Shown: positions 3,457-52,552 of the stretch, in pieces | Layout of the letters: every line of letters starts with the position of its first letter | How positions within the stretch are numbered: position 1 is the first letter of the stretch | Assembly: GCA_021777105.1 (NCBI GenBank) | Contig: JAIQZQ010000095.1 | Span: forward strand, 1 to 64,000 | From: Candidatus Anammoxibacter sp. | Lineage (GTDB): Bacteria > Planctomycetota > Brocadiia > Brocadiales > Anammoxibacteraceae | Direction of reading: 5' to 3' | Length of the DNA stretch: 64,000 nt | Position numbers and translations under genes: made by a program | The notes under the pieces: model-generated | Told to the model about the DNA's origin: nothing | The model's input: only the letters and a program-made list of their open reading frames with translations | Database searches by the model: none

Positions 3457-5811
3457 TCATAACCATTTATAGCTCTGTAACAATTTTTCCCATCCGTCCC
3501 GGTATTCAAGTTTCTGAATTAGCTCCTTTGTTTTCGGTTTCATCTCTTTTTTCAGGATTGAAACCGTTTTGCTGAACTCCTTATTACCTTCAGCCGCTAT
3601 TTCAAACCACAAAAGTATGGCAAAAAACAATCTAATCTCTATTCCATCAGGCAATGGAACGCTGCGAATCCATTTTAAAATATCATCATATGCCGGGTCG
3701 TGTTTTTCATCAAGCAATTGTGAAGCATAAGCAGCTTTTTCATAAAATGCATCCTCTTTTTTAAATCTTTCATGAAACTCCTTAACAGCCTTGTCCCGTT
3801 TGCAATCAACCGCCATTAAAAGCAGATCGCAATGCCTAAGGTCTTCATCATCGTAAAACTCCATTATAGTTTCATATGCTTCCGGCTTGCCTGTTGCTGT
3901 TGCAAGATCTGTTATTTCGTAATTCGGGAATTGGCGGGTTTTTATTTTTTTTAGGTATTTTTCCCATATTTGGCCCTGGTCTTTGCGCGCATTAATATCT
4001 TGGTAAATTGAAATAAAACTGAACGTGTTTATCAAACATAATTGAAGGTATCTCATGTATATCATGTCTCTCATGTATCTCAGGTCTATCATGTCTCTCA
4101 GGTATCTCAGGTCTCCCAGATAACTCATGTCTATCATGTCTATCATTTCTATCATGTCTCTCATGTCTCTCATGTCTTTCAGGTATCTCATGTCTCTCAT
4201 GTCTCTTAAATCTGATTTCTTATAAAAATGAAAAACCGGAAACATTTTGTAAAAATCCAGCACGGGTTTTATAGCTTCAACAAAGAAACGCTTACGTATT
4301 TCAGTGCCGCAAGGTGGCTGGCCCTGCAATGCTTTTAAAACAGTTTGTTTGCGTCCACCTTTCCAAAGCTCTTCAAGGAAACGTCCGGCTTCATTCATTA
4401 GAGATAGGGCCATAATGAACACCTCTTCCCAATCGTTTGAATTTTTGCGTTTTTTTAGAGCTTTCATAGCAAGCTGTTCGTCTTTTGAGATATATTCAGC
4501 GGCAAGAAATTCCTGTAAGGTCAAGTGCGAGAATGAGATCCACCCTTCGGCCTGCTCTGTCAGCAGGCCGGAAGTCTCTTCTATCTGTTTGATTGATTTG
4601 CCGGCGTCTTCATACTCTTGCCCAAGCCTGTCCATTTCGTTTTTAAAGAAATCTACAGCATCCTTTTTGGGGAAAATCTTCAACCCTTTTTCAAGAAACG
4701 TCCAGGCCATCTTTGCCAACAGGCGTCGCAGGCTCTGGTAGACCATCTTTTCAATATACAGTTTGGGGGCAAGCCCCTGATCTACCCTCCAATCTTTTAT
4801 TAACAGGTCGATTATCTTGTCGTAAGTGTCTACGCGCGAGTCAGGTATGTCAAGGTTTCGCTCCAGCGTCATGCAAATGAAAGCGCAAAGTAAAGGTGTG
4901 CGCCCAAGCTCGTTTATGCCATGGTTTGATTCAAAACTCTTCTTTAATTCGTTTTGCATATCCAGCCGGTCAAAAAACCAGTTTTCAATAAAGGCCGTCA
5001 TCTCTTCCGTTGTAAAATTGTCAATTACCATAATCCTGAAACCGTCAAAAACATCTTTTTCGTCAAAAGCCGCAGGTCGGCTTGTTATTAAAAACAAGTT
5101 GTTGGAAAATTTTTTAACAAACTGTTTTAATTTTTCGCGAAGTTTTGAGCGGAGTTCGGGTCTTGCTTCGTCAAATGCGTCAAACGCTATAAACCCCTTG
5201 CCATTTTTTAAAATAAATTTTAAAAAAGGCAAGGCCAAGCCCTCATCAATTCCCTGCTCGGCAAGATATATTGAAATTAGCCGGTCAATATCATAGTCGG
5301 CTCTGGGTCCGACACTCTTTAATATATCCTTAAATGGAAGAAAAAGCGGAAGGGTTGACGATAATGAAGGGTTATCCTTAAAACCATTCTCTATAAAACG
5401 TTTAACCAGAAAACGGCTGAACGTTGTCTTGCCAAAGCCGGGGCCTCCTAATGCCACTGCGTGTTTGCATTTTATAAAGGCGTCAACAGCGTTTAACTGG
5501 TCGCCGGACTCTTTCTCTTCGTTGAATTTTGCTATAAGTTCCTCAATATCTTCAGGTTTGCTTTTTTTCAGAATTGCGGGGTCGATATCAAATTTTTCAG
5601 GATATATTCTGGTGTTGATGTAGAGCTGTGTAAGGGGCATCTCCCGGGCCATTTTTAGAATGCGCACGGTGGAAACGGATTTGTAGATATTTTTGTAAAC
5701 ATCTATAAGATTTTGCTCAATCTCTTTTTTTGAAAGATTTAAGTCTGGATTCTGTTTCGCCAATCCTGTGGCAACTTGTGAAATGGTGTGTTCTATTGCA
5801 AAAGACGGCAT
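3457..5811 (-). CDS. NACHT-family NTPase (STAND) with internal tripeptide repeat region
   Basis: 784 aa; Walker A 'ALGGPGFGKTTFSRFL', Walker B-like 'GFIAFDAFDE', sensor-like 'FLITSRPAAF'; low-complexity repeat in the C-terminal half. Confidence 0.85.
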   Translation of the reverse strand: MPSFAIEHTISQVATGLAKQNPDLNLSKKEIEQNLIDVYKNIYKSVSTVRILKMAREMPLTQLYINTRIYPEKFDIDPAILKKSKPEDIEELIAKFNEEKESGDQLNAVDAFIKCKHAVALGGPGFGKTTFSRFLVKRFIENGFKDNPSLSSTLPLFLPFKDILKSVGPRADYDIDRLISIYLAEQGIDEGLALPFLKFILKNGKGFIAFDAFDEARPELRSKLREKLKQFVKKFSNNLFLITSRPAAFDEKDVFDGFRIMVIDNFTTEEMTAFIENWFFDRLDMQNELKKSFESNHGINELGRTPLLCAFICMTLERNLDIPDSRVDTYDKIIDLLIKDWRVDQGLAPKLYIEKMVYQSLRRLLAKMAWTFLEKGLKIFPKKDAVDFFKNEMDRLGQEYEDAGKSIKQIEETSGLLTEQAEGWISFSHLTLQEFLAAEYISKDEQLAMKALKKRKNSNDWEEVFIMALSLMNEAGRFLEELWKGGRKQTVLKALQGQPPCGTEIRKRFFVEAIKPVLDFYKMFPVFHFYKKSDLRDMRDMRYLKDMRDMRDMIEMIDMIDMSYLGDLRYLRDMIDLRYMRDMIYMRYLQLCLINTFSFISIYQDINARKDQGQIWEKYLKKIKTRQFPNYEITDLATATGKPEAYETIMEFYDDEDLRHCDLLLMAVDCKRDKAVKEFHERFKKEDAFYEKAAYASQLLDEKHDPAYDDILKWIRSVPLPDGIEIRLFFAILLWFEIAAEGNKEFSKTVSILKKEMKPKTKELIQKLEYRDGWEKLLQSYKWL
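4042..4212 (-). repeat. 9-bp coding minisatellite, about 19 units, inside the NACHT gene
   Basis: Translates as DLR-DMR-DMR-YLK-DMR-DMR-DMI-EMI-DMI-DMS-YLG-DLR-YLR-DMI-DLR-YMR-DMI-YMR-YLQ; + strand shows repeated atctcatgt/ctatcatgt units. Confidence 0.95.
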
Positions 5812-14694: not shown

Positions 14695-16008
14695 ATGTAT
14701 AAAGAAAATCTAAACAAATTCATATTAAATCAAGACCAAAAGATTAGCGAGGCCTTGCAGGCGACTAACATGTTGGGCATCGCTTTTGTCACTGCCGACA
14801 ACGGCAAGTTGATAGGGGTCATAACAGATGGCGATATTCGCAGAGCAGGGCTGAGGGGCCGTTCGCTTGATTCTGAAGTGAGCCACATAATGAATAAAGA
14901 TTTTTTTTACGCGATTGATGAAACAGAAGATGCCGACATATTAAAAAAGATACCCAAAAGGGTTCATTGCATTCCGGTGGTTGATTGTGAAGGGCTGCTT
15001 ATTGGATACAAATTTTTCTCGGAACTAACCGGCAAGAACGCGTTAATCACGGGAATCACAGGGCAAGACGGCGCCTATTTGGCGGAATTTCTCTTGGCAA
15101 AAGGCTACACTGTTTATGGGGCGTACAGGCGAACAAGTAATTTAACTTTTAGTAGGCTGGAGTATCTGGAGATAAAAGACAAAATCAATTTGATCCCGCT
15201 TGATTTGACTGATCCATGGTCTGTGTATAATGCGTTAAAAATTTCTTCGCCTTCAGAGGTGTACAATTTGGCGGCGCAAAGTTTTGTGCAAACCTCATTT
15301 AATCAGCCGCAATTGACTCTAAATATAAACACGATTGGAACCGCCAATGTATTGGAGGCTATAAGATACTCTTCTCCGTCTACAAAATACTATCAGGCTT
15401 CCACTAGTGAATTATACGGCAAAGTTCATGAAATACCGCAAAATGAAAAGACCCCATTTTATCCACGGAGCCCTTATGCCATATCAAAGCTTGCCGCATA
15501 TTGGTTGACGGTTAATTACAGAGAGGCGTACGGCATATTTGCCTGCAACGGCATACTTTTTAATCATGAATCACCGATTCGCGGTTATGAATTTGTCACA
15601 AGAAAGATCACTCAAGGCGTAGCCGCAATAAAAACCGGTCGTGATACCGAGCTGCATTTGGGCAATCTGGACGCGAAAAGGGATTGGGGATATGCAAAAG
15701 ATTATGTAGAGTCGATGTGGCTTATGCTACAGCATGGCGAACCGGAGGACTTTGTTATAGCAACCGGCAAGACTCATACCGTGCGCGACTTTGCTGAAAA
15801 AGCCTTTGAAAAAGCCGGACTTGATTATCGTGAATATGTAAAGGTGGATGAGAAATTTTATCGTCCGACTGAAGTTGACTTGCTGATTGGGGATCCGTCA
15901 AAAGCTAAAAATAAGCTCGAATGGAATCCTGACCAAAAAACTACGTTTGCTGAATTGGTTGACATGATGGTTGTAAATGATTTGAAGCTTTTGGAGAATA
16001 ACGCATAA
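14695..16008 (+). CDS. CBS-domain fused GDP-sugar 4,6-dehydratase (Gmd-like SDR)
   Basis: 437 aa; CBS 'GVITDGDIRRAGL', then 'ALITGITGQDGAYLAEFLLAKGYTVYG', 'FYPRSPYAISKLAAYW', 'LGNLDAKRDWGYAKDYV'. Confidence 0.88.
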   Translation: MYKENLNKFILNQDQKISEALQATNMLGIAFVTADNGKLIGVITDGDIRRAGLRGRSLDSEVSHIMNKDFFYAIDETEDADILKKIPKRVHCIPVVDCEGLLIGYKFFSELTGKNALITGITGQDGAYLAEFLLAKGYTVYGAYRRTSNLTFSRLEYLEIKDKINLIPLDLTDPWSVYNALKISSPSEVYNLAAQSFVQTSFNQPQLTLNINTIGTANVLEAIRYSSPSTKYYQASTSELYGKVHEIPQNEKTPFYPRSPYAISKLAAYWLTVNYREAYGIFACNGILFNHESPIRGYEFVTRKITQGVAAIKTGRDTELHLGNLDAKRDWGYAKDYVESMWLMLQHGEPEDFVIATGKTHTVRDFAEKAFEKAGLDYREYVKVDEKFYRPTEVDLLIGDPSKAKNKLEWNPDQKTTFAELVDMMVVNDLKLLENNA

Positions 16009-16009
16009 A

Positions 16010-17452
16010 ATGAATTCAAAATTGGAAAATATTGTAATCGCTGAAGATCGCAACGTTTATGACGTGCTGGAGCTAATAGATAAAAATGCTAAAGGGGTCG
16101 TGTTTGTTGTTGATAAAGATAATAAAATTTGCGGCGTAATTACCGATGGCGATATAAGAAGAGGTCTGCTAAATAACATTACTATAAATGACAAATTGAC
16201 GACTGTTATGAACAGGAGTTTTGTCGCTGTGCAGGAAAACACATCGTTTGATGAAGTGATGGAAAGGATCGGGTATAAGTATAAGAGCATTCCGATAGTT
16301 AATTCAGAAGGTGAAATAGTTGATTATTATTCTCTGGATTTAGATTGCAATATCCCTATATCAAAACCTCTTTTTATAGGGAATGAACTTAAATATGTAA
16401 CGGAATGCATAGCTACAAACTGGATATCGTCAAAAGGAAAATTCGTTAATATGTTTGAGTCTAAATTCGCCGAATATATAGGCTCTGAATATGCGGCGGC
16501 CACTTCAAACGGCACTACTGCGTTGCATCTAGCTCTTGAGGCGTTGGGGATAAAGGCCGGTGATGAGGTTATTGTTCCGGCTCTAACGTTTATCGCCACG
16601 GCAAACGCAGTCACATACACCGGCGCGAAACCAGTATTTGCTGATTCCGAAATGGATACATGGAACATTGATCCCAAATCTATTGAAGCGAAAATTACCG
16701 ATAAAACAAAAGCCATAATCCCTGTCCACATTTATGGTCAACCTGCCAAAATGGACGAGATAATGGAGATAGCAAAAAGAAACAACCTTTATGTTGTTGA
16801 AGACGCGGCTGAAGCGCATGGGGCTGAATATAAAGGGAAAAAGGTCGGCGGCATCGGGCATATAGGTGTTTTTAGTTTTTATGGCAACAAGATTATCACT
16901 TCAGGCGAAGGCGGCATGTTGGTGACGAATGACGCTGAAATTTTCAGGAAATCAAAAATCCTGAGAGACCATGGCATGAACCCGGAGAAGAAATATTGGC
17001 ACGATTATATTGGGTTTAATTATAGAATGACTAACCTTCAGGCCGCTGTTGGATGCGCGCAACTGGAAAACATCGATTATTTCCTGAAAAAGAAACAGGA
17101 TATCGTGGAAACCTACAAGCAATGTTTGTCCGGTGTTCAAAAAATAACACCACCGCCGGAAAATAGCTGGTCGATAAATGTATCTTGGTTGTATTCCGTG
17201 GTTTTTAAAGGAAAATCAGGCGCCAAAAGTATCCGTGACAGGATTATCGAACGTTTAGAAGAGGGCAATATAGAGTGCAGACCATTTTTTTATCCCATCC
17301 ATAAACTACCTCCATATTTTTCCGAAGAGATCTTGGAGACCGCGGAATATCTTTCCGCAAACGGAATCAACATGCCGTCATATATTGATATAGAGACGGA
17401 TAACGTAAAGAAAGTTTGCAATAAATTAAAGGAGCTGTTGGATGAGTGTTAA
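16010..17452 (+). CDS. CBS-domain fused DegT/DnrJ/EryC1 sugar aminotransferase
   Basis: 480 aa; CBS 'GVITDGDIRRGLL', then 'SNGTTALHLALEALGIKAGDEVIVPALTFIATANAV', 'VVEDAAEAHGAEYKGKKVG', 'SFYGNKIITSGEGGM'. Confidence 0.9.
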   Translation: MNSKLENIVIAEDRNVYDVLELIDKNAKGVVFVVDKDNKICGVITDGDIRRGLLNNITINDKLTTVMNRSFVAVQENTSFDEVMERIGYKYKSIPIVNSEGEIVDYYSLDLDCNIPISKPLFIGNELKYVTECIATNWISSKGKFVNMFESKFAEYIGSEYAAATSNGTTALHLALEALGIKAGDEVIVPALTFIATANAVTYTGAKPVFADSEMDTWNIDPKSIEAKITDKTKAIIPVHIYGQPAKMDEIMEIAKRNNLYVVEDAAEAHGAEYKGKKVGGIGHIGVFSFYGNKIITSGEGGMLVTNDAEIFRKSKILRDHGMNPEKKYWHDYIGFNYRMTNLQAAVGCAQLENIDYFLKKKQDIVETYKQCLSGVQKITPPPENSWSINVSWLYSVVFKGKSGAKSIRDRIIERLEEGNIECRPFFYPIHKLPPYFSEEILETAEYLSANGINMPSYIDIETDNVKKVCNKLKELLDEC

Positions 17453-23517: not shown

Positions 23518-23588
23518 TGATTATTTAGAAAAAAACAGTATGATTTTAAAGCTATTTAATGTGGGCTTATACATATGAACGGCAAGAT

Positions 23589-25469
23589 ATGGACAATATA
23601 CTTCTAATTGGACGCGACGTTCAAAAAGTAAAGTTAAACGTTGCAAAGTATAAAACTATTTATTGTTTTGAATCTGAAAAAGTCCTGATAAAACCTGGAA
23701 AGGCTAACAACATTGTTGTCATACCTGAAGATTTCTACACAGCGATTGATTTCTTAACAGCGAATTTGCGCGCGTCTATTCAAATAGATAAAATATTTGA
23801 CTTAATGGTTGCAAACAGGGATGTCGCCGCCTTTAACTTTTTAGTAAACAAAACCAAATATGCTGAAATTCTGATTAAAAATGCGTTAGTGACCGAGGTG
23901 GCAAGGGTTTTTCGTCTTTTTTTGTTTGCTGAAAAAGTCATAACACATTATGAAATAAAGAGCGAAATAGATTTTATACTTGGAAATATACCCGGCGCTC
24001 TTTATAAATGTCTGCGCGCCAATCAGTTTTTACCACCCAATATAAAAATACCAATCCGAACTGTCCTGCAATTTACAGTTTGGACTATGGTAAAAGATGG
24101 ATACTTTAAGCTAAAATTAATGTTTTTTCCGGAACTCCTGCTTCTAAAGATGCGGGGAAGACGGAATAGGGAGGAAAACAAAAAACAATTTAAAATTGGC
24201 GTGCATCTGCATGACGGCAGAGGTTTTGATGAAAACAGAGGAAGCATGTCATTTGTTATTGACGACAAAACGATTAAACGTGAAGATGCGCTGTTTGTGA
24301 TTGATGAAAAACCCGGCATCGCAGATTTTATTAGAAAGACTAAAGCGGAAGCCGCGCAAAAAGGCTATAACTTAGTTAATTTCCATAATGATCTGATTGT
24401 TAATTTTAACCGATTTGCATATTTAAAAAAATATTATTTCAAAGCCTGCAAAATAAGGTTTGAATTGCTCTTTTTAAGCCTTAGGTTGCCAATATTATCA
24501 CAACTGTGTTTTTATGCATTAAACGATTACATTTTGTGGGAGCTGTTTTATGATAACTACAATGTTGAAAAATTTTTCTGCATTCAGCATCCAGGCAGGC
24601 CGATCAGGGTTTTTTGTGTTAGAAATCATGGATCGCAAAGCATATTACTCCATTCCTCAATAGTTTTTGGCCGATTAAAGAGAGATAAGGAGCCTGCAAA
24701 AAACAAATCCGAACAAACCGAATACTCATTTTTGGTTTATGATAAATCCTGTTCTGATAAATTTACAAACCAATGGCTTAAAACAAACCAAAATGATATT
24801 AAGGAGTTTATAGACATAGGATCGGTTTTTTCCGACTTAGTCTATAATATTAAACATTTCAGGCGAAAAGATTTAAGAAAAAGCATCGGAGTCGCAAATT
24901 CGCAAACATTAATCACTGTTTTTGACAGCACTGTTGGGCATATTGGGGTGTTAACATTTAAGGAAGAATCAATTTTAGCAAATTCAATGTTAAGATTGCT
25001 TAATGAGAATAGCGATTATCTTCTTGTTTTTAAATTTAAAAAAGGCACAGGCATAAAACAATTTCCAGAAACAAGCCGCTTAACAAAACAGTTTGAAAAT
25101 CTTTTTAGACATCCCAGATGTATTTACGGCAATGAGTTAGAACTGGCCCATTTTGAACTTATGGGCATTGCGGATTTAATTGTAACCACACCGTTGTCTT
25201 CCGTGATATTCGAAGGTCTTGTTGGGGGAGTAAAAACGTTTTGTTACGACCCTTTGGGCAGGTACGATCAAGATCATTATGTTATTGAAAATTTCCCTAA
25301 TTTTTCAGCTCATAGCTATGACGAATTAAATGCATATGCCCGTTACTGGCTTAAAGAACTCTGTGAAAATGAATTTGAAGAGTTCAAGGATAAATATATA
25401 AAGAAATATGTGGATGGTTTTTGCGACGGCAATGCGATGCAGAGATTTAGGGATGCGCTTCTTTCATAA
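23589..25469 (+). CDS. Large GT-B-like surface-carbohydrate protein, uncharacterised
   Basis: ORF opens at 23559 (GTG); the ATG at 23589 is a likelier start. C-terminal 'GIADLIVTTPLSSVIFEGLVGGVKTFCYDPLGRY' resembles capsule/CDP-glycerol-type transferase ends. Confidence 0.55.
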   Translation: MDNILLIGRDVQKVKLNVAKYKTIYCFESEKVLIKPGKANNIVVIPEDFYTAIDFLTANLRASIQIDKIFDLMVANRDVAAFNFLVNKTKYAEILIKNALVTEVARVFRLFLFAEKVITHYEIKSEIDFILGNIPGALYKCLRANQFLPPNIKIPIRTVLQFTVWTMVKDGYFKLKLMFFPELLLLKMRGRRNREENKKQFKIGVHLHDGRGFDENRGSMSFVIDDKTIKREDALFVIDEKPGIADFIRKTKAEAAQKGYNLVNFHNDLIVNFNRFAYLKKYYFKACKIRFELLFLSLRLPILSQLCFYALNDYILWELFYDNYNVEKFFCIQHPGRPIRVFCVRNHGSQSILLHSSIVFGRLKRDKEPAKNKSEQTEYSFLVYDKSCSDKFTNQWLKTNQNDIKEFIDIGSVFSDLVYNIKHFRRKDLRKSIGVANSQTLITVFDSTVGHIGVLTFKEESILANSMLRLLNENSDYLLVFKFKKGTGIKQFPETSRLTKQFENLFRHPRCIYGNELELAHFELMGIADLIVTTPLSSVIFEGLVGGVKTFCYDPLGRYDQDHYVIENFPNFSAHSYDELNAYARYWLKELCENEFEEFKDKYIKKYVDGFCDGNAMQRFRDALLS

Positions 25470-38264: not shown

Positions 38265-39152
38265 ATGACATTGCCAAATTTTTTGTGCGTAGGAACCCAA
38301 AAGTCTGGAACTACAACTTTACATGATATATTAAAGCAGCATCCCGATATATATATTCCGTTTTTTAAAGAATCGAATTTTTTTAGTGAAGACGAAATAT
38401 ATAAAAAAGGAATTAATTGGTATGAACATGAATCATTTGGCAAGCATAAAGATCAAAAAATAATTGGTGAAATATCACCAGACTATATGTTTCTGGATTT
38501 TGTGCCTGAAAGAATTTCCATTCATTTAGGAAAAGAAATAAAACTTTTATTTATATTACGCAACCCTGTTGATCGCGCTTATTCGCATTATACGATGAAC
38601 TCCACCCATTTTTTTGACAACGAGACCTTTGAAAGAGCCATTCAACTGGAAGACGATAGAACGGCAAAAGGATTGTATGAAAAGAGGGTGTATAGCTATA
38701 TAAGCAGAGGGTTTTACGCCAGGCAGATTAAGAATTACATGAAATATTTTCCTAAAGATAATATGATGTTTGTAATTTTTGAAGATGATTTTTTAAAAGA
38801 GATGGATAAGACCATAAACAATCTTTTAAGGTTTTTAAATGTTGAAGACGCTCCATTAAACACCAATATAAAAAGCAACCCGGCAAGCGTAGTTAAATCC
38901 AAAATGCTAAGAGACGCTATTAATAAACCTACTCTTTTAAAGAAAATATGCAAATTTCTTTTACCGTCGACAACGTTAAGACGTGAACTTTTGTTTTTTA
39001 TAGATAAAAAGAACAAAAAGGCTGTTAAATTTCAAGATTTGGATGACAATATTAAAACGGAAATGCTTAAAAGATATTTCATTGACGATATCAATGAATT
39101 AGAAAATATACTGGGACGTGATTTGAGTATATGGCGTGAGTTTCAGCGTTAA
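38265..39152 (+). CDS. PAPS-dependent sulfotransferase
   Basis: 295 aa; 5'-PSB 'LCVGTQKSGTTTLHDIL'; 3'-PB 'LLFILRNPVDRAYSHY'. Confidence 0.92.
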   Translation: MTLPNFLCVGTQKSGTTTLHDILKQHPDIYIPFFKESNFFSEDEIYKKGINWYEHESFGKHKDQKIIGEISPDYMFLDFVPERISIHLGKEIKLLFILRNPVDRAYSHYTMNSTHFFDNETFERAIQLEDDRTAKGLYEKRVYSYISRGFYARQIKNYMKYFPKDNMMFVIFEDDFLKEMDKTINNLLRFLNVEDAPLNTNIKSNPASVVKSKMLRDAINKPTLLKKICKFLLPSTTLRRELLFFIDKKNKKAVKFQDLDDNIKTEMLKRYFIDDINELENILGRDLSIWREFQR

Positions 39153-39203: not shown

Positions 39204-40985
39204 ATGAATATTTTAGGAATTCATGACGGCCATAACAGCAGCGCTTGCATTTTATCCTCAGGCAAGATAATTTGCGCAATACAGGAAGAGCGTTTGCGAA
39301 AAATTAAAAACTATTGGGCTGTTCCAACCGAGAGTATAGAAAACTGCCTTAAATTTTCCGGCTTAAAGTTTGAAGATATTGATTGCGTTGCAATTGCTAC
39401 ATTTGAACAGTTTACAAAATTGAACGGTTACGTAAGCAGAGATGATTATATGGGGTCTATGAAAAGAATTTACGACTCTAATTTTTCTTTTAAGGAACGT
39501 TTGACTGTTTTGCGTGATCGTTTGTCTTATAAATTTAAGAAAAAAGAGTGGCAACGTAACCGGCAGAACCAATGCGTGTCGATGAGGAAAAAGATATACG
39601 CGAGTTATTTGCCGGTTGCGTTAAAAAAGAAGACCCATTTCATTGAGCACCATATCGCGCATTATGCGACCGCCGCCTTTGGAGCCAAATATTATGGAAA
39701 CAAAAGATATATGGCTTTCACCTGCGACGGCCAGGGCGATGGACGCTGCGCGACAGTTCACCTTATTGAAAAAAATGGCGAGATAAAATTCATAGACGAC
39801 ATTGAGGACAACAACTCAATAGCAAATCTATACGCATTAATTACCTGCGTAATGGGTTTTGTTGTTTTAGAGCACGAATACAAATTAATGGGAATGGCGC
39901 CTTACGCTAATGAAACAAGAAGCAAAGAGGTCGCTAAAATGTTTCTGGATCTGTTCAGGTGGAAGGACGGCAAATGGTTCCTCAAACCAGGGATAAACCG
40001 TATACGCGACACTTATGAGAAACCTATTATAAAAAAGATCTATGAAATCTGTAAATATAAACGGTTTGATGAAATATGCGGGGGTATTCAATACGCGTTT
40101 GAAACCGTTTTATTAAAATGGATAGGCTATTACACTGAAAAATACGAAGTAGACACAATTGCGTTGGCCGGCGGAGCGTTTATGAATGTTAAAACCAATA
40201 TGCTCATTTCGCAACTTCCGCAAATAAACGACATGTTTGTTTTCCCCTCATGCGGGGACGAGACGCTTTCAATCGGCGCCGCAATGCAACAACATTACAA
40301 TCAAACCGAAGAAAACCCCAAACCATTGGACAACATGTATTTGGGCCTGAATTATGATCAGAACGATATTGAAAAATCATTAGAAAATTTTAAACAAAAA
40401 GGATGTGAATTCTCCGTTAAAAAATCAGAAAATATTGAAAAAGATATAGCCCTCTTGTTGTCGCAAAAGAATGTAGTTGCCCGCTTTAAAGGCCGAAGCG
40501 AATTTGGAGCGCGAGCATTGGGCAATAGATCAATACTATCCCATCCAACAGAATCCCGAAACATCATTACAATTAACAAAATGATAAAAAAGAGAGATTT
40601 CTGGATGCCGTTTGCCTCGTCAGTTCTTGACACCAGGGCGGATGATTATCTGGTTAATCCAAAAGGGATAGGTACGCCCTATATGATTATGGCATTCCCG
40701 GGCGGAGATAAAGTTGAGGACATTTACGCAGGCTCCCATCCTCAAGACCATACGGTAAGGCCGCAGATTGTCACGCAGGAGAGCAACCCTTCCTATTACA
40801 ATCTAATTAAACATTTTGAAGATCTAACCGGCGTGGGCGGTATCCTTAATACGTCTTTTAATTTGCATGGATACCCCTTAGTAGAATCTCCGGACGACGC
40901 CCTTGATGTATTTTTTAAATCAGGTCTAAAGTTTTTAGCGATTGAAGATTATTTAGTAAATAAACCAATTTTAGAGGGTAAGTAG
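39204..40985 (+). CDS. Carbamoyltransferase, NodU/CmcH/TobZ family
   Basis: 593 aa; 'ILGIHDGHNSSACIL', 'IEHHIAHYATAAFGA', 'ARFKGRSEFGARALGNRSIL', 'ILNTSFNLHGYPLVESPDDAL'. Confidence 0.93.
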   Translation: MNILGIHDGHNSSACILSSGKIICAIQEERLRKIKNYWAVPTESIENCLKFSGLKFEDIDCVAIATFEQFTKLNGYVSRDDYMGSMKRIYDSNFSFKERLTVLRDRLSYKFKKKEWQRNRQNQCVSMRKKIYASYLPVALKKKTHFIEHHIAHYATAAFGAKYYGNKRYMAFTCDGQGDGRCATVHLIEKNGEIKFIDDIEDNNSIANLYALITCVMGFVVLEHEYKLMGMAPYANETRSKEVAKMFLDLFRWKDGKWFLKPGINRIRDTYEKPIIKKIYEICKYKRFDEICGGIQYAFETVLLKWIGYYTEKYEVDTIALAGGAFMNVKTNMLISQLPQINDMFVFPSCGDETLSIGAAMQQHYNQTEENPKPLDNMYLGLNYDQNDIEKSLENFKQKGCEFSVKKSENIEKDIALLLSQKNVVARFKGRSEFGARALGNRSILSHPTESRNIITINKMIKKRDFWMPFASSVLDTRADDYLVNPKGIGTPYMIMAFPGGDKVEDIYAGSHPQDHTVRPQIVTQESNPSYYNLIKHFEDLTGVGGILNTSFNLHGYPLVESPDDALDVFFKSGLKFLAIEDYLVNKPILEGK

Positions 40986-42470: not shown

Positions 42471-45400
42471 ATGAAAACACTCCTGTTTACAGAAAATTTT
42501 TACGCCGGTGGTATGGATTCGTTTATTGTTAATCTGATAAACTACTGGCCTTCTGATGATGAATTTATTTTAATGTGCAACCATGATCATCCCGGGCTGG
42601 AAATTATCGAGAAGCGGTTAACAAGGCCGTGCCGCATTATAAGGCACAAGGTTATAATAGAGAGCCAGTTAGACAGAAAGTTTTCACACTCCTATTTTCT
42701 AAACTTAGTAAGAAAGTTTTCAATGCTTCCCGGGCAGTATTTATTGCTGCTCTATCATATCCTCTATTTTAACCGGGCCATAAAAAAACTTGGCCCTGAC
42801 CGCCTTCTTGTGGTGGCAGGCAATTATCCCGGCGGTAATACATGCAGATCCGTTTCATTAACCGGCTTGTTTAATCAAAAATGGGGAAAGCCGCTTCTGG
42901 TCTACCACAATCAGCCCGTCCCTATCCGCAAAGTATTGCTGTTACCTGAGAGCTTAATTGATTTCTACATTGAAAAAAGCGTGGCGTCATTAATAACTGT
43001 ATCACATTTTACTCAACGCCATTTATCCAACCGCCCCGGCATAGGGTTTTCGAAAAAAAAGAAGGTTATTTATAACGGCATAGAGATTCCGCCTGAAACA
43101 GAGAACGATAAACAGTCAATTCGAAGCGAGTTGAATATCAGTTCTGATGCGCCGATATTGTTAATGCTTGGCACATATGAGAAACGCAAAGGGCATGAAT
43201 TTCTTTTGCAATCATTTCTTAAAGTAAAAAAGGCTTGCCCTGAATCTCAACTTATTATCGCAGGTTATGGATATCAATCGGAATATGACCATGTTGTAAA
43301 TCTGGTGGAGGAACGCAAGCTTGAGTCATGCGTTCATTTGCTGCGTTTTAGAAATGATGTCGCAAACCTAATCAAAGAGTGCGATATTATGGTTGCTCCA
43401 TCGCAAAAAGATGAAAGTTTCGGCCTGACAATTATAGAAGCCATGGCGCTTCAAACACCGGTAATTGCGGCGAATGTCGGAGGCATGCCTGAAGTCCTTG
43501 AAAATGGAAAAGGCGGTTTTGTTATAGAGTTAAACACAGATTCGTTTGCCGATAAAATTATTGAACTGTTTAAAGATGCTGAATTGCGAAAAGAGATTGG
43601 CGAGGAAGGCAGACGCGTTTTCCTTAAGAAATTTTACGCAAAACGCATGGCTGAGGATTATTTAAGCTCTCTCTCTAATCGTGATAATCTGGAATCCGAT
43701 CTTAACTTTTTACAGGCTATTACAGGCGGCGTTGAGTTTGAAAATTTTCTTAAATACAGCCTCAACAATTCTATGGATGGTTTTATTTCTTATGTAATTA
43801 AAAGAGTTAAATTAAAATTAATTAATAAAAAAGCTAAACAAGGTTATTGGTATCCAGCAGAGTTAAAAGCAATAATTAATTCTAAAAACAAACCTGATCA
43901 AGTTGAATGGAAATTGCCATGTACAGAAAAGACTGAAGACCGGGCCGAAAACAATAACGAATTTTCTGTTAAAAGTCTAAAGCTCGCAGGTTGTGAACTA
44001 CAAATAAACGAAAATATTCCATGGAATCAAAATTTTGCGGACGATGAAGACTTTGAAAGCTTGCACAGGTGGAATTGGCTTTTAACCGCTCTCTCTCAAC
44101 ATGAAGGAACAAATTATTCTAATATATCAAAATGGGGCGAAAACCAAATTACTGATTGGTTTGATCAGGGGTATGAAGAGGGCGATGGGTTAATTTGGGA
44201 AAGTTACACGGCTGGGGAACGTATTTCCAACGCGGTCTTGTTTTTCTATCTGACTGGTTATAAACCTTCAGCTAAAATACAAAACGGTTTGATGGAATTT
44301 GCCGCATACCTTATAAACAATTTGGAATATATGGGGCCGCATACCGGAAATCATGTTTTAAATAACGGCAGGGCTCTTTTTTTAGCCGGTTGCGCATTTG
44401 ACGACGAAAATTTGCTTTATACGGGCAAAATAATAATACTGCGCGAAATCAGAAATCTTGTGACCTCTGACGGTTTTTTGCGTGAAGGCTCTAGTCACTA
44501 TCATTTTCTATTTACACGCTGGGTATTGGAGTTCTGCCTGTTTGCAGAAATTACCGGTCAGGATAAACTAAAAGATGAATTAGCCGGCTTTGCAAAAAAA
44601 TTGCTGAAAAATTGCTGGTTTTTCCTTGTTTACAACGAGAAAGAGAAAGATTGGGATATGCCTTTGATTGGAGATATTTCTCCAGATTTTTCGCCTTCCT
44701 GGTTAATAGACTTGCCATGGTCCCGTCCCGCAGTTTCAATTTATACACCTAAAGATTTGCCTGCTAATCCAAAGGCGGGAGGATATGGCTCTTTATTTAG
44801 AGAGTTAGCGGAATCTTCAGGCGAAAATATCGCGCTATTATCAAATAGAGATAAAATTCAAAGTTATACTCATAGCGGTTGGCATAGGGTTGATAAATGT
44901 GGCTCAACGCTCATATGGCGAGCGGAACAAACGGCAACGCCTAAACATGTGGGACATGGGCATTGCGATATTGGGGCTTTTTGCCTTTATATTAACGGCT
45001 ATCCTTTTCTGACAGATTGCGGGCGCCTTAATTATAAGCAGGACGAATGGGGCAGTTTTGGGAGTTCGGCAAAAGCGCACAATAGCGTTTGTATAGACGG
45101 GTTTGAACCGGCGCCAATTCCATGGAATAGATACCCCGCTTATTATTCGCAATCAAAACTGGATGTCGAATTAACAAACAGTGAAAATGGAACTGATATC
45201 GAATTGTCTCTTAGAGGTTACCGACGATTGCCGCAACCGGTTGAGATAAAGCGGAAACTGTTATTAAGAGAAAAGTCATTTGCTATAGAAGACGAGATTT
45301 TAGGAAAAGGAACCCGAAATGTTTCGGTGTTTTTTCATTTTGCTTCCGGCGCGACAGTTAATAGCAGGGAAATGTTAAATAAGTATGGAGTTGCCGGGCG

Positions 45401-45590
45401 GTTTGGAAATGCTGAAATATTTTTTGAAACCGGCAATAAGGAGTTTAACATTGATTGTTTTGACGGTGGAGACTCTCCATTGGGATGGAGAGTAAACGAA
45501 TACGGGATGAAAATTCCCGGGGCGACATTGCGTTTGCAGAATGAAGCGAAAATACCTTTAAAACTAAAAAGCATGATAACATGGGATTAA
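42471..45590 (+). CDS. Fusion of GT4-type glycosyltransferase and heparinase II/III-like lyase domain
   Basis: 1039 aa; GT part 'VIYNGIEIP...LGTYEKRKGHEFLLQSF...DESFGLTIIEAMALQTPVIAANVGGMPE'; C-terminal 'EGSSHYHFLFTRWVLEF', 'PKHVGHGHCDIGAFCLYINGYPFLTDCGRLNY', 'SSAKAHNSVCIDG' typical of Hepar_II_III proteins. Confidence 0.9.
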   Translation: MKTLLFTENFYAGGMDSFIVNLINYWPSDDEFILMCNHDHPGLEIIEKRLTRPCRIIRHKVIIESQLDRKFSHSYFLNLVRKFSMLPGQYLLLLYHILYFNRAIKKLGPDRLLVVAGNYPGGNTCRSVSLTGLFNQKWGKPLLVYHNQPVPIRKVLLLPESLIDFYIEKSVASLITVSHFTQRHLSNRPGIGFSKKKKVIYNGIEIPPETENDKQSIRSELNISSDAPILLMLGTYEKRKGHEFLLQSFLKVKKACPESQLIIAGYGYQSEYDHVVNLVEERKLESCVHLLRFRNDVANLIKECDIMVAPSQKDESFGLTIIEAMALQTPVIAANVGGMPEVLENGKGGFVIELNTDSFADKIIELFKDAELRKEIGEEGRRVFLKKFYAKRMAEDYLSSLSNRDNLESDLNFLQAITGGVEFENFLKYSLNNSMDGFISYVIKRVKLKLINKKAKQGYWYPAELKAIINSKNKPDQVEWKLPCTEKTEDRAENNNEFSVKSLKLAGCELQINENIPWNQNFADDEDFESLHRWNWLLTALSQHEGTNYSNISKWGENQITDWFDQGYEEGDGLIWESYTAGERISNAVLFFYLTGYKPSAKIQNGLMEFAAYLINNLEYMGPHTGNHVLNNGRALFLAGCAFDDENLLYTGKIIILREIRNLVTSDGFLREGSSHYHFLFTRWVLEFCLFAEITGQDKLKDELAGFAKKLLKNCWFFLVYNEKEKDWDMPLIGDISPDFSPSWLIDLPWSRPAVSIYTPKDLPANPKAGGYGSLFRELAESSGENIALLSNRDKIQSYTHSGWHRVDKCGSTLIWRAEQTATPKHVGHGHCDIGAFCLYINGYPFLTDCGRLNYKQDEWGSFGSSAKAHNSVCIDGFEPAPIPWNRYPAYYSQSKLDVELTNSENGTDIELSLRGYRRLPQPVEIKRKLLLREKSFAIEDEILGKGTRNVSVFFHFASGATVNSREMLNKYGVAGRFGNAEIFFETGNKEFNIDCFDGGDSPLGWRVNEYGMKIPGATLRLQNEAKIPLKLKSMITWD

Positions 45591-45599
45591 TAAAATAAT

Positions 45600-47468
45600 A
45601 TGTGCGGTATTTGCGGTATTTTTAATTTTAACGGCTCTAACGCGAATCGTGATACTGTTGTTGATATGAATAACCGTATGATTCATAGAGGGCCTGATGA
45701 TGACGGCTATTATTTTGAAGGCGAGATTGGTTTGGGCATGCGGCGGCTCTCTATTATTGATCTTGAAAAAGGGCGCCAACCTATTTCAAATGAGGACGGC
45801 AGATATACTGTTATTCAAAACGGCGAAATATATAACTATACGGAATTAAAAAATGATCTTGTTAAAAGGGGTCATTCGTTAAAGACCAATAGTGATACTG
45901 AAACTATTGTTCATTTGTTTGAGGAGAAAGGGGTTGATTGTGTAGCTGAATTAAATGGCATGTTTGCAATTGCTATATGGGATAATGCTAAAAAAGAGCT
46001 TTTCCTGTTTAGAGACAGAATGGGCGTTAAACCACTTTTTTACGCCGTAACCGCTGAATCTTTTCTGTTTAGCTCTGATCTTTCTAGTCTTACCGGCGGC
46101 CTTAAAACTAAAAACGATATAAATTACAACGCGTTTCTCAGTTATATAGGCATGTCTTACGTCTCATATCCTGAAACAATTTTTAAGAATATAAATAAGC
46201 TTGAGCCCGGCTATTTCTTAAAAATCTCTGCGGCTTATAAAGTCGAAAAAAAGAGATATTGGGATGTTAATGATTTTGCCACACAGAAAAGCTTGTCTAT
46301 TGAAGAGTATAAGGAACAGACGTTAGCCGCATTGCGGGATTCAATACGAATTCAATTGCGTAGCGATGTTCCTGTTGGAACGTTTCTTTCAGGCGGCATT
46401 GACAGCTCGGCGATTGTCGCATTGTTGTCCGAGCAAATTGATCAGCCTGTCAGAACTTTTTCAGCCGGTTTTGAAAATGGCTTAAACGAGCTGCCATATG
46501 CAAGGATAGTAGCAAACAAATTTAAGACAAACCATACGGAATTGACTATATCAGGCAATGAGCTACCTTCCATTCTGCCGGAGATAATTGATAAGATGGA
46601 CGAGCCTGTTTCAGACAATTCAATAATCCCCACATTTATGCTCTCAAAGCTGGCAATTGAAAACGGGATAAAGGTTATACTAAACGGAACCGGCGGTGAT
46701 GAGCTTTTTGGAGGTTATGATAGATACCTCCCTCAAAACCAGCCATGGAAAATGATTAACTCCTTATCGTTAAATATGCGAAAGCTGGGCGGAAGCCTAT
46801 TTAAATATAAGGACTTTAATAAAGGGACGCAAATTGCTAATCCTGAACTCTATTTTGCTTCTTCAATTTCAGGCGTTAATTTTGCCATAGCCAGAAGCTT
46901 GTTTAAAAATGAAAAGGATTACCAATCATTGATTAGTAATGTGATTGCAGGATATAAAAAATTTGTCCCATATAGTTATAAAGACACAAATAAATCTCGG
47001 TTAATGTATTGCGATCTTAAAGATTACCTCGTAAACGACGTGCTGGCGTTGCTTGATAAAATGGCAATGGCTGTCTCATTGGAAGGCCGGGTTCCTTTGC
47101 TTGATCATCGCGTGGTTGAAATGTGTTTCAGGATTCCGGACAGCATAAAATTTAAAAACGGAACGCTTAAATGGCTCTTAAAAAATACGTTAAAAGATAT
47201 TTTGCCTCCTGAAATTCACAATCTCCCCAAAGCAGGCTTTGCCGGCCCCACATGGTTTTGGGTAAATAATTTGCTCAAGGATTCCATGCGTAAGTGTCTT
47301 GTAAATAACCCCATAACATTTTTTAAAGAAAACCTGAATATATCCGTTTTAAAAGAGGCGTTGGATAACGCCAAATTAACCAGACTCTACTCTGAAACAC
47401 TTTTTTCATTATACATTTTCAGCCTATGGTATAAACGCCATGTTGATGGTGAAGAAATAGTGATATAG
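45600..47468 (+). CDS. asnB: Asparagine synthase (glutamine-hydrolysing)
   Basis: 622 aa; 'MCGICGIFNF', 'RMIHRGPDDDGYY', 'VPVGTFLSGGIDSSAIVALL'. Confidence 0.95.
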   Translation: MCGICGIFNFNGSNANRDTVVDMNNRMIHRGPDDDGYYFEGEIGLGMRRLSIIDLEKGRQPISNEDGRYTVIQNGEIYNYTELKNDLVKRGHSLKTNSDTETIVHLFEEKGVDCVAELNGMFAIAIWDNAKKELFLFRDRMGVKPLFYAVTAESFLFSSDLSSLTGGLKTKNDINYNAFLSYIGMSYVSYPETIFKNINKLEPGYFLKISAAYKVEKKRYWDVNDFATQKSLSIEEYKEQTLAALRDSIRIQLRSDVPVGTFLSGGIDSSAIVALLSEQIDQPVRTFSAGFENGLNELPYARIVANKFKTNHTELTISGNELPSILPEIIDKMDEPVSDNSIIPTFMLSKLAIENGIKVILNGTGGDELFGGYDRYLPQNQPWKMINSLSLNMRKLGGSLFKYKDFNKGTQIANPELYFASSISGVNFAIARSLFKNEKDYQSLISNVIAGYKKFVPYSYKDTNKSRLMYCDLKDYLVNDVLALLDKMAMAVSLEGRVPLLDHRVVEMCFRIPDSIKFKNGTLKWLLKNTLKDILPPEIHNLPKAGFAGPTWFWVNNLLKDSMRKCLVNNPITFFKENLNISVLKEALDNAKLTRLYSETLFSLYIFSLWYKRHVDGEEIVI

Positions 47469-47641: not shown

Positions 47642-48110
47642 GAATAATGTAAATAACTATTTTAATTACAGCGTGGTTCATCATTATTTCAATGATATTA
47701 TCTAGTTTTGGTGGGCATAAGCTTTTAGCTGGAAAAAAGCCCGAAGGGCTGACTTATTAAAGCCCAGGGCAACGCCCTGGGTATGGTATGTATACGAATT
47801 TTAGCCCTGAAAGGGCGATTTAAAAAAATCGCATGCCGCAATCATTAACGAATATTCTGGTTCACATAATTTTCAGGGCTAAATAATGTAAATAGATTTT
47901 TTAATTACAATGCTGCCCATCATTATTTCAATGACACTGCATATTATTGGTGGACATAGATTTTTAGTTAGACATAAAGCCGGAAAGGCTGACTTAATAT
48001 AGCCCAAAGCAACGCCCTAGGTAGAAGAGATTCCTTATTCTAGCCCTGTAAGGGCGATTTAAAAACCACATGCCCCAATCACTAACTAATATTCTGGTGC
48101 ACATAATTTT
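47635..48110 (+). repeat. Two adjacent diverged copies (47635-47873 and 47874-48110) of a ~238-bp element ending in a transposase 5' end
   Basis: Both begin cagggct(g/a)aataatgtaaata and end ...atgcc(g/c)caatca(t/c)taac(g/t)aatattctggt(t/g)cacataatttt; ATGs at 47833 and 48070. Confidence 0.92.
47833..47886 (+). pseudogene. Truncated 5' end of a second IS200-like transposase copy
   Basis: Reads MPQSLTNILVHIIFRAK*; the first 14 codons give the same peptide as the full-length transposase at 48070. Confidence 0.85.
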
Positions 48111-48522
48111 CAGCACAAAGATTCGCGCTCCCTTAATTACTTCAAAAATAGACACAGAGCTTTATGCTTACATTGCTTCAATATTAAAAGATTGCGATTG
48201 CTCACCAATAATTATTGGCGGGCCGCAAGATCATGTTCATATATTATGTAAATTATCCAAAACCATAACCATTAGTTCCATTATAGAGGATATAAAAAAG
48301 AAATCGTCAAAATGGGTTAAAACCAAAGGCGAGGAATATAAAGATTTTTATTGGCAAAGCGGATATGGCTCTTTTTCTATAGGGCAATCTCAAGTTGATG
48401 CGTTAAAACAATATATTCAAAACCAAAAAGAACATCACAAAAAGAGAACTTTTAAAGAGGAGTTGCTTGAAATATTAAAACGGTATGAAATTAAATACGA
48501 CGAGCGTTATCTTTGGGAGTGA
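48070..48522 (+). mobile_element. IS200/IS605-type Y1 (HUH) transposase, TnpA/REP-associated-like
   Basis: 150 aa; 'MPQSLTNILVHIIFSTK', HUH-type 'GGPQDHVHILCKL', catalytic Tyr context 'LKQYIQNQKEHHKKRTF'; flanked by palindromic modules. Confidence 0.9.
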
Positions 48523-48647: not shown

Positions 48648-49538
48648 ATGTCATCTATATTTATCTCAATTGTTATCCCAACGCACAACTCTGAGGAGTT
48701 TATTGAAAGAACTTTAAACTCCGTATTTGATCAAACCTATACTGATTATGAAGTTATAATTTCAGATGACGGCTCGACGGACGGCACATTGGAAATAGTT
48801 AAAGACGTTTTTGATAAACATGCCGGCAAAAAGACGGTTATTCTAAACGGAAATCATGAGGGGCCCGGCGCGGCAAGGAATAAAGGGATAAACGCGTCAA
48901 ACGGAAAGTGGGTGTCGTTTCTTGATTCGGATGATGAATGGATGCCTGAAAAATTAAGCAGGGTTGCATGTTGCATTCAGGATAATGATAAAATTAGTCT
49001 GGTTTGCCATAGCGAAATATGGAAAAATGGGGAAAATGAAATTCTGTTAAACTATCAGGAAATGTTTGACAATAGCGTTGAGCCTTTTCTCTCTCTTTAT
49101 CGGAAGAACACTTTATCAACTTCCGCTGTTACGGTAAAAAAAGAGCTTTTGTTAAAAGCCGGTCTGTTTGATGTTGCATTGCCGGCAGCGCAGGATTATG
49201 ATCTCTGGTTGCGTTTGAGTTTGTTGGAAGATTTCAGAGTTGGCTTTATAGAAACGCCTTTGGGTCGATATATAACCCGAGCGGGAAATATAAGTTCGCG
49301 GCCTGAAAGACGGCTGGATTGCATGTTGCAAATAGCCGGAAAGTATTATAAAGGTTTAGAGCGCGCGACCAATTTTCCGGGAATTGAATGGAGAAAGTTT
49401 GAAGGCCGCGCTTATGGCTCGGCGGCCATGGATTTGCTGGCAGCGAGAAACTTAAAGAAAGGTTTTCTTTTTATGTGCCTAAGCTTGGCTAAATGGCCTT
49501 TTAGGTTGGACTGGATTAGAAAATTATTGCGGAGATAG
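48648..49538 (+). CDS. Glycosyltransferase family 2
   Basis: 296 aa; 'SIVIPTHNSEEFIERTLNSVFDQTYTDYEVIISDDGSTDGT', 'SFLDSDDEW'. Confidence 0.93.
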   Translation: MSSIFISIVIPTHNSEEFIERTLNSVFDQTYTDYEVIISDDGSTDGTLEIVKDVFDKHAGKKTVILNGNHEGPGAARNKGINASNGKWVSFLDSDDEWMPEKLSRVACCIQDNDKISLVCHSEIWKNGENEILLNYQEMFDNSVEPFLSLYRKNTLSTSAVTVKKELLLKAGLFDVALPAAQDYDLWLRLSLLEDFRVGFIETPLGRYITRAGNISSRPERRLDCMLQIAGKYYKGLERATNFPGIEWRKFEGRAYGSAAMDLLAARNLKKGFLFMCLSLAKWPFRLDWIRKLLRR

Positions 49539-50398: not shown

Positions 50399-52552
50399 AT
50401 GATTATACCTATAACTCCTTTTCCGACTCTACGTCAGTTTCTGTATTTTGGTTTTAACAAAAAAACTCCTTGGAATGCGTTTTCCAGGCAGGCAAGTTAT
50501 TTCCCAAGAGGCGGGGTTGCATTGGCCGCAGTTGTCAGGAGGCTTATTAAGGAGCGGGGCGGCAAGCAGGTGGTTGTGTACGTTCCTGATTATTTTTGCA
50601 ATCAATCCCTAAGCTGGATGCGCGGTGAGAATTGTAAAATAATTTTTTATCCTGTTACCCTTGAATGCAAACCGGATTGGGAAAAAGTTGATGAGCTTGT
50701 AAAAAATGACCATCCTCCTGATTTGTTCATCCTCGTCCACTACTTTGGATTTTGCAATGATATTGAAAACGCGGTTGATTTTTGTGAAAAGCACGGGGCG
50801 AAACTTCTGGAAGACGCGGCTCATGCGCTTAGGCCAACTTCACAAATAGGGAATCGCGGCTGGGCTACATTGTTTAGCCCTCATAAATTATTGCCTTTTC
50901 CTCCGGTTGGGATTTTAACATATAAAGAGAATGTTGAAGATTATTTTTCAGCTCCTCCTTTAGGGTCTTTTTGCAAAAAAAGCGATATTGTCTGGTTTTT
51001 AAAGCGAAGTTTGCAATCGTTTCTGACAGACGCGAATATTAATTACAAGTCATTCAAGTCTATGCCGGAGTTTGATTATAACGGCGAAGACGAGGCGGAA
51101 AACAATTTGTCCGGTTCATATGAAACGGTTTCAAAAACTACAATTCGATGGGTTTTAAGCCTAAAAGATAGCCTGAATGATATAGCAAAAAAAAGAAAAG
51201 CTAATTATCAAAAACTGGAACATGTTTTATCCAGATTTAATAATGTAAAACCCGCGTTTGATAATGATAAGAATGAAACTATTCCTTATTTGTTTGCTTT
51301 TCGTTCAGAAGAAAAAACGGCGTATGATATATTTAAACAGTTGCGGTTAAGAAGAGTACCGGTTCAAACGTGGCCTGATATTGCGCCGGAAGTATTAAAA
51401 AAACCTGAAAACCATTGCGCGGCTCTGACGCTTCGCAAAACAATCCTGACTTTGCCGATACATCAGGATGTGTCAAATCAACAAATAGCGTATATGGGCG
51501 ATGTTTTATCTGATCTGCTATCCACCGCCAATTCCTCCGGCGTAATAAATAATAATTTCGCCGGACGGTTTAAAAAAAATAGCAAACATGGCAATGCGCC
51601 GTGCCTGGAAAGAGTTGAAAGGGTTAAATGGAACGAGCTTTCTAAAAAATGCAATCGGTTTAATATGATGCAAAGCTGGGAGTATGGGGATGCAAAGAGA
51701 TTATCGCAACGTTGGAGGCCTCAAAGGTTTGCGCTTTTAGATGAAAATGCCGAGCCGTTTGGCGTTTTGCAGGCTCTAACCATTTCGTTGCCGTTAATTG
51801 GCGGGGCTGTCAGGATTAATAGAGGCCCTTTGTTGTTTGATGATATTTGGGGCGCAAACGATTGCGAGGAGACGATTGAGAAAGCTATACAAGCGGTTGC
51901 CTGCGGGATTAAAAAGCGCAGATGGCGATATCTTAATATTAGCTTTGAATTCCCGGAAAACATTAAGACTGCGGAAGCTCTTAAAAAATATGGATTCAGG
52001 CAAAAAGGCGGCTCGGCCTGGGGGTCGACTCTCTTGTCGTTGGAAAAGAGCGTTGAGGAAATAAGGGCTTCATTTCACGGCAAATGGCGCAATCTTTTAA
52101 AAAAAGCGGAGAAGTCGGAGCTTGAGCTTGAGCATGCCGAGGCGGATGATGACTTAAATTTTTTGATAAACAATTATCTACAGTTACAACAGGATAAAAA
52201 TTTTTCTGGAATACCTGAAAAACTTTTTCGTACAATGGGGAGCGTTACCGGCGGATCGTGGGACTTTTGCCCGATTTTTGCGCTTAAAAATCAGGAACGC
52301 GTGGGCGGTGTCTTGTTTGTTGGACATGGCGACACCTCCACTTATATGGTGGGGTGGACGTCTTTAGAGGGCAGGGATTTGATGGCTAATTATTTTCTGC
52401 TTTGGCAGGCTATTCTTTATTTTAAAGGCCTTGGGTACAAATGGTTTGATGTTGGCGGGTTGAACGAGGACACTCCAAAAGGGATAGCTCATTTTAAACA
52501 GGGTTTAAAAGGCGCGCCCTATCGGCTTGTTGGCAATTGGGCGAAATATTAA
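50399..52552 (+). CDS. Fusion of DegT-like PLP aminotransferase and FemAB/GNAT-type acyltransferase domain
   Basis: 717 aa; N-term 'LLEDAAHALRPTSQIGNRGWATLFSPHKLLPFPPVG'; C-term 'MMQSWEYGDAKRLSQRWRP...SFHGKWRNLLKKAEKSELELE...YMVGWTSLEGRDLMANYFLLWQAILYFKGLGYKWFDVGG'. Confidence 0.85.
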   Translation: MIIPITPFPTLRQFLYFGFNKKTPWNAFSRQASYFPRGGVALAAVVRRLIKERGGKQVVVYVPDYFCNQSLSWMRGENCKIIFYPVTLECKPDWEKVDELVKNDHPPDLFILVHYFGFCNDIENAVDFCEKHGAKLLEDAAHALRPTSQIGNRGWATLFSPHKLLPFPPVGILTYKENVEDYFSAPPLGSFCKKSDIVWFLKRSLQSFLTDANINYKSFKSMPEFDYNGEDEAENNLSGSYETVSKTTIRWVLSLKDSLNDIAKKRKANYQKLEHVLSRFNNVKPAFDNDKNETIPYLFAFRSEEKTAYDIFKQLRLRRVPVQTWPDIAPEVLKKPENHCAALTLRKTILTLPIHQDVSNQQIAYMGDVLSDLLSTANSSGVINNNFAGRFKKNSKHGNAPCLERVERVKWNELSKKCNRFNMMQSWEYGDAKRLSQRWRPQRFALLDENAEPFGVLQALTISLPLIGGAVRINRGPLLFDDIWGANDCEETIEKAIQAVACGIKKRRWRYLNISFEFPENIKTAEALKKYGFRQKGGSAWGSTLLSLEKSVEEIRASFHGKWRNLLKKAEKSELELEHAEADDDLNFLINNYLQLQQDKNFSGIPEKLFRTMGSVTGGSWDFCPIFALKNQERVGGVLFVGHGDTSTYMVGWTSLEGRDLMANYFLLWQAILYFKGLGYKWFDVGGLNEDTPKGIAHFKQGLKGAPYRLVGNWAKY

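Follow-up and report, generated by a model that had tools for sequence, protein, structure and literature searches.

Hepar_II_III enzymes abstract the C5 proton of a uronic acid, and the next step is either elimination, as in a lyase, or reprotonation, as in an epimerase. To our knowledge, no characterised bacterial Hepar_II_III protein is an epimerase. It has been argued that lyases and C5-epimerases have the fold and the catalytic residues in common and that small changes convert one to the other (PMC8006597); the lyase fold and catalytic apparatus also serve C5-epimerases including DS-epi1 (PMC8006597, PMC11848413). A set of Asn/His, Tyr and His residues has been tabulated for PL12, PL15, PL17, PL21 and PL39 (PMC12088678), and PL33 has a second tyrosine (PMC11848413). 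We found no paper on the role of Hepar_II_III proteins without a signal peptide, and no literature on Hepar proteins in polysaccharide clusters with an AsnB-type amidotransferase or an ADH-GFO oxidoreductase.

Here, we describe a GT4 glycosyltransferase joined to a Hepar_II_III protein, encoded in a stretch of 64,000 nucleotides (the window) from a planctomycete of the same order as Ca. Scalindua. Separate Hepar_II_III proteins of Ca. Scalindua rubra (L031) and an Ignavibacteriae MAG (L032) have the same catalytic residues, 30-32% identity over the heparinase half and, as beside the fusion, an AsnB neighbour, but they are encoded by separate genes, comprise 637-646 aa and carry no GT4 domain. 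Heparinase III/HepC (PL12; 4mmh, 4fnv, BT4657) has the same Asn/Tyr/His set and matches the fold of a low-confidence model of the heparinase half (Foldseek E 6e-16), whereas its identity is ~17% and these enzymes are stand-alone lyases studied on heparan sulfate. DS-epi1 (6hzn), which acts during synthesis as the heparinase half may do, resembles the low-confidence model in fold (Foldseek E 7.5e-9) and appears to have the same Tyr-His-Tyr arrangement with an adjacent metal site, although it is a remote (12% identity), eukaryotic luminal enzyme without a GT4 domain. The BshA-like GT4s (2jjm, 3mbo) share the GT-B nucleotide-sugar domain and the EX7E motif with the GT half; however, they are unfused and the GT half is not a BshA, as its score lies below the NCBIfam cut-off.

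Reading frame and domain organization

An earlier note on this DNA had placed a GT4-type domain of ~400 aa and a Hepar_II_III-type half in one ORF. The region is indeed one uninterrupted, ATG-started frame with zero internal stops, and Pfam recognised both halves. A complete GT4 protein (~residues 1-400) is followed by a linker of ~20 residues and a complete Hepar_II_III protein (~420-1039), as listed below.

42471..45590, forward strand: GT4-Hepar_II_III fusion gene, 1039 aa (single frame and Pfam)
42471..43670, forward strand: GT4 glycosyltransferase part, residues 1-400 (PF00534, 1.9e-39; PF13692; phmmer to 2jjm/3mbo)
43413..43439, forward strand: GT4 EX7E motif, E315 to E323 (sequence)
43671..43727, forward strand: linker, residues 401-419, no internal start with a ribosome-binding motif (start-codon scan)
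43728..45587, forward strand: Hepar_II_III part, residues 420-1039, helical toroid then beta sandwich (PF16889, PF07940; alignment; Foldseek with a low-confidence model)

Glycos_transf_1 matched residues 213-382 (E=1.9e-39) with 135.4 bits against a curated cut-off of 26.4, which places the first half in the GT4 family. In the second half, Hepar_II_III_N at residues 508-698 (E=2.5e-7; 30.8 bits, cut-off 22) and Hepar_II_III_C at residues 797-967 (E=3e-26; 92.8 bits, cut-off 24) indicate membership of the superfamily. The motifs that had been quoted for the two halves are present: DESFGLTIIEAM is the GT4 EX7E donor-binding motif, which reads E315-SFGLTII-E323, and those of the heparinase half hold catalytic residues. 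By phmmer, the GT half was nearest to the BshA-type GT4 structures 2jjm/3mbo and the heparinase half to heparinase III (4fnv). The NCBIfam equivalog scores were 112 against a cut-off of 274 for BshA and 38.4 bits against a cut-off of 600 for HepC (NF045572, PL12); as both are far under their cut-offs, neither name is transferable to the fusion halves. Judged from these matches, both halves are homologous to known proteins and lie in the same frame, and glycosyl transfer is the predicted activity of the GT4 half.

The separate relatives align to the heparinase half from ~residue 420, which corresponds to their native N-termini (ENFLKYSL vs VNLLKYLL), and GT4 proteins terminate near residue 400, so that the joint unites two complete proteins. 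The earlier note had advised looking for a start between the domains. Within codons 380-480, the in-frame starts are ATG 393 and ATG 435, and a Shine-Dalgarno-like motif is absent at both. We detected no signal peptide or transmembrane segment, as no 19-residue window reached transmembrane-like hydropathy. With the Hepar domain lying behind a presumably cytoplasmic GT4 domain and carrying neither signal peptide nor membrane anchor, the protein does not look like a secreted lyase. Considering that export signals and a usable internal start are both lacking, the two halves should be cytoplasmic, as had been expected of the lyase half unless it were exported.

Active site and fold of the heparinase half

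The catalytic set of the lyase superfamily is intact in the heparinase half (N627-H628, Y677, H829 and the second tyrosine Y855), and H831/D849/H870 are the metal ligands.

44349..44354, forward strand: Asn627-His628, carboxylate-neutralising pair (conserved in A1-A3; counterparts in the table of PMC12088678)
44499..44501, forward strand: Tyr677, catalytic acid/base tyrosine (invariant in 9 divergent members)
44955..44963, forward strand: His829 (catalytic) and His831 (metal ligand), HGHCD motif (invariant in 9 divergent members)
45015..45035, forward strand: Asp849 (metal ligand) and Tyr855 (second tyrosine) (invariant in 9 divergent members)
45078..45080, forward strand: His870, metal ligand, AHNS motif (invariant in 9 divergent members)

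Conservation of the lyase His and Tyr residues had been named as a check on the earlier reading. When nine divergent Hepar_II_III proteins, 18-35% identical to the window sequence, were aligned, His628, Tyr677, His829, His831, Asp849, Tyr855 and His870 were invariant, and Asn627 was kept in most of them. The Asn/His, Tyr and His residues match those tabulated for PL12/15/17/21/39 (PMC12088678), and Tyr855 is the counterpart of the second tyrosine of PL33. The correspondence of the metal ligands to those of heparinase II and DS-epi1 is read from spacing, not from structural superposition. Two AF2 models, calculated from tiny alignments (4 and 6 sequences), were of low confidence (mean pLDDT 52 and 50) and were used for fold assignment only. 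Structure prediction had also been recommended in the earlier note. Even with the low-confidence model of the heparinase half, Foldseek returned HepC/heparinase III first (6e-16) and then PL17, PL15 and PL33 lyases, and human DS-epi1 (6hzn, 7.5e-9) was among the matches. Residues of the DS-epi1-type Tyr-His-Tyr arrangement align in the heparinase half, and lyases share these residues too. Beta-elimination, leaving an unsaturated uronosyl end, would be one possible activity of this half.

Relatives and the search for further fusions

The closest relatives of the heparinase half are 30-37% identical and come from Ca. Scalindua rubra (L031, 32%), the Ignavibacteriae MAG (L032, 30%) and a Planctomycetota MAG (L030/L033, 36%). 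L031 and L032 are complete separate Hepar genes, and L030/L033 are cut by the contig end upstream. A search of 392 phylum genomes at E <= 1e-45 recovered no further subfamily member except in G304, the source of L030. Many Hepar_II_III proteins were found by family scan in 294 Planctomycetota genomes, but the same family search yielded no second GT4-Hepar fusion, nor did a non-exhaustive scan of 85k species. Long frames (>850 aa) around PF07940 matches in the 294 genomes had no GT4 domain in those checked, and L064, L068, L071 and L074 were rejected as fusions, as their upstream parts resemble stop-free high-G+C sequence, not protein. Viral contigs held no relative of either half, and plasmids no match to the heparinase half. 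Derivation of the GT half from one of the GT4s that neighbour Hepar genes is not supported either, as its best matches are GT4 genes without a Hepar gene in the short stretch fetched. Within the searches made, the joining of GT4 and Hepar_II_III is a new, unique domain architecture, observed in one genome; the constituent families and the cluster setting are already familiar.

Gene neighbourhood and the surrounding polysaccharide cluster

Sampling bears out the statement of the earlier note that the two families often adjoin in exopolysaccharide clusters. In 44 fetched stretches, a GT4 gene lies within 6 kb of 40 of the 45 Hepar genes and a two-domain ADH-GFO oxidoreductase near 24 of the 45, fractions that are not unbiased rates as the stretches were picked mostly from the best family matches. 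An AsnB-type amidotransferase gene comes immediately after the Hepar gene in both L031 and L032, with a GT2 gene next, and the window keeps this order; a GT4 gene is not directly upstream of the Hepar gene in either relative.

45600..47468, forward strand: AsnB-type amidotransferase, conserved downstream partner (PF00733/PF13537; identity to the AsnB of L031/L032)
48648..49538, forward strand: GT2 glycosyltransferase, third gene of the Hepar-AsnB-GT2 order (28-29% identity to the GT2 of L031/L032)

Compared with the Hepar-adjacent AsnB of L031 and L032, the AsnB encoded here shows 43% and 45% identity, respectively, versus 37% to the other AsnB on the same contig, so Hepar and AsnB look like a conserved pair. 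In other bacteria, uronic acids are amidated by amidotransferases of this type. In the window, an IS200-type (Y1_Tnp) transposase gene (48070-48522, +) separates the AsnB gene from the GT2 gene. A second, unfused Hepar_II_III protein of 712 aa is encoded 25 kb downstream on the same contig (C137:70165-72303; L028:8165-10300, +), after GT4 and ADH-GFO oxidoreductase genes and before a UDP-GlcNAc 2-epimerase gene.

The contig also encodes a Wzx flippase, a Bac_transf initiating transferase and a Wzy_C protein, together with two NeuB-type proteins, CTP transferases, DegT aminotransferases, radical SAM proteins and a polysaccharide deacetylase.

31079..32548, forward strand: Wzx-type flippase (PF01943/PF13440; 9 membrane-like segments)
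34550..36745, forward strand: pyruvate kinase barrel-ATP sulfurylase fusion (731-aa frame; full-length counterpart in G004)
38265..39152, forward strand: sulfotransferase (PF00685)
39204..40985, forward strand: carbamoyltransferase (PF02543/PF16861)

The cluster looks Wzx/Wzy-like, and Pfam scans of the window showed no synthase or ABC export genes. With Wzx, Bac_transf and Wzy_C present, the polymer is probably made outside the cytoplasm, beyond the reach of the fusion protein. Judging from the sulfotransferase, ATP sulfurylase and carbamoyltransferase, the glycan may carry many modifications, and it is probably sulfated. The pyruvate kinase-ATP sulfurylase fusion lies near the sulfotransferase gene and also occurs in another genome (G004:C140:89-2224, 39% identity over 4-723); in most relatives the two are separate proteins. 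As regards the uronate that the earlier note ascribed to the polymer, we saw no gene for a UDP-glucose/GDP-mannose dehydrogenase within the window, although two are on other contigs of the genome.

Proposed function and alternative explanations

We propose that the fusion is a two-domain cytoplasmic enzyme of surface-polysaccharide synthesis in which GT4 adds a sugar and the heparinase half modifies a uronosyl residue at C5, more likely by epimerising than by cleaving; we assign this reading a probability of about 0.4. The fusion would have arisen from two gene families that are usually adjacent. At the inner membrane, its GT4 half would attach a sugar to a repeat unit carried on undecaprenyl, and its Hepar_II_III half would then remove the C5 proton from a uronosyl of that unit, in all likelihood for epimerisation rather than chain cleavage; the neighbouring AsnB-type protein would probably amidate a carboxyl group of the same glycan. 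We infer a uronosyl substrate, a lipid-linked acceptor and epimerisation instead of elimination, and between epimerisation and cleavage we regard the former as somewhat more likely. As the fold and residues are common to lyases and epimerases, C5 modification of a repeat-unit uronosyl is favoured, and the opposition in the earlier note between one half that builds and one that cleaves glycans need not be a contradiction (PMC8006597, PMC11848413). Several points weigh against this reading: epimerases and lyases are not told apart by any residue of the heparinase half, its closest matches among solved structures are lyases (phmmer, Foldseek), the AF2 models are poor, no characterised bacterial member of the family is known to be an epimerase, a uronate-forming gene was not seen in the window and the fusion occurs in one genome only.

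The earlier note had instead proposed coupled synthesis and length control, the lyase half trimming a uronate polymer during assembly. A synthetic family fused to a degradative one, and GT4 and Hepar genes that adjoin, would fit this idea. However, a polymer of the Wzx/Wzy type is made outside, so that a cytoplasmic enzyme meets only lipid-linked repeat units; together with the missing export signals and synthase or ABC export genes, this makes length control quite improbable. A cytoplasmic lyase could act on those same units, beta-eliminating misbuilt or stalled lipid-linked repeat units so that GT and lyase proof-read together. The full catalytic set, the top fold and sequence matches to true lyases and the lack of an export signal all agree with such editing, but it would be wasteful for a lyase to act on what its own GT partner has made, and the repeat units are short, with no evident need for a stable fusion; we regard editing as possible but doubtful.

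The joint itself could also be without mechanistic meaning, if two independent enzymes were connected by loss of a stop codon and kept for co-expression only. Adjacency of the two families is common, no other fusion was found in the searches, and the GT half is not closest to Hepar-adjacent GT4s, but the heparinase has lost its own start with both halves intact, which fits, though does not prove, a fusion that has been kept, and we consider this explanation unlikely. Finally, an assembly or indel error in the short linker could have joined two overlapping genes whose frames differ. The draft genome comprises 142 contigs, its contamination is put at 5.5%, and the fusion is known from this single genome with no relative fused. 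Nevertheless, no in-frame start with a ribosome-binding motif lies near the native N-terminus of the heparinase, both halves resemble the neighbouring genes in codon-position G+C, and beyond the junction the AsnB and GT2 genes follow in the order found in the relatives. An indel in the linker is therefore unlikely, and an artefact as a whole very unlikely.

In the polysaccharide clusters of planctomycetes, GT4 genes are recurrent neighbours of Hepar_II_III genes. A natural fusion to a GT suggests that at least one Hepar_II_III protein works in the cytoplasm and shares its pathway with a GT; this speaks against the default annotation as a secreted, glycan-degrading lyase. More speculatively, and with considerable doubt, cytoplasmic Hepar_II_III proteins of bacterial polysaccharide clusters may be uronosyl C5-epimerases on lipid-linked repeat units, the fusion coupling such an epimerase to the GT of the same step, with AsnB as partner. 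If true, this would be the bacterial counterpart of the epimerisation that takes place when glycosaminoglycans are made. In any case, the fusion offers a single protein for testing lyase versus epimerase activity.

Other proteins encoded in the window

GDP-mannose dehydratase-like and DegT aminotransferase-like proteins of the NeuB-containing sugar pathway (14695-16008 and 16010-17452, +) carry CBS-domain N-terminal segments. A 717-aa protein (50399-52552, +) combines a partial DegT match (residues 90-162) with a FemAB/acetyltransferase-like match close to the C-terminus, and is possibly another fusion. Three large cluster proteins (23559-25469, 32548-34395 and 59741-61789, +) have no Pfam match; with its roughly 12 membrane-like segments, the last of them may be a polymerase. 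Outside the sugar cluster, near the start of the window, a 784-aa protein with a NACHT NTPase domain is encoded at 3457-5811 (-).
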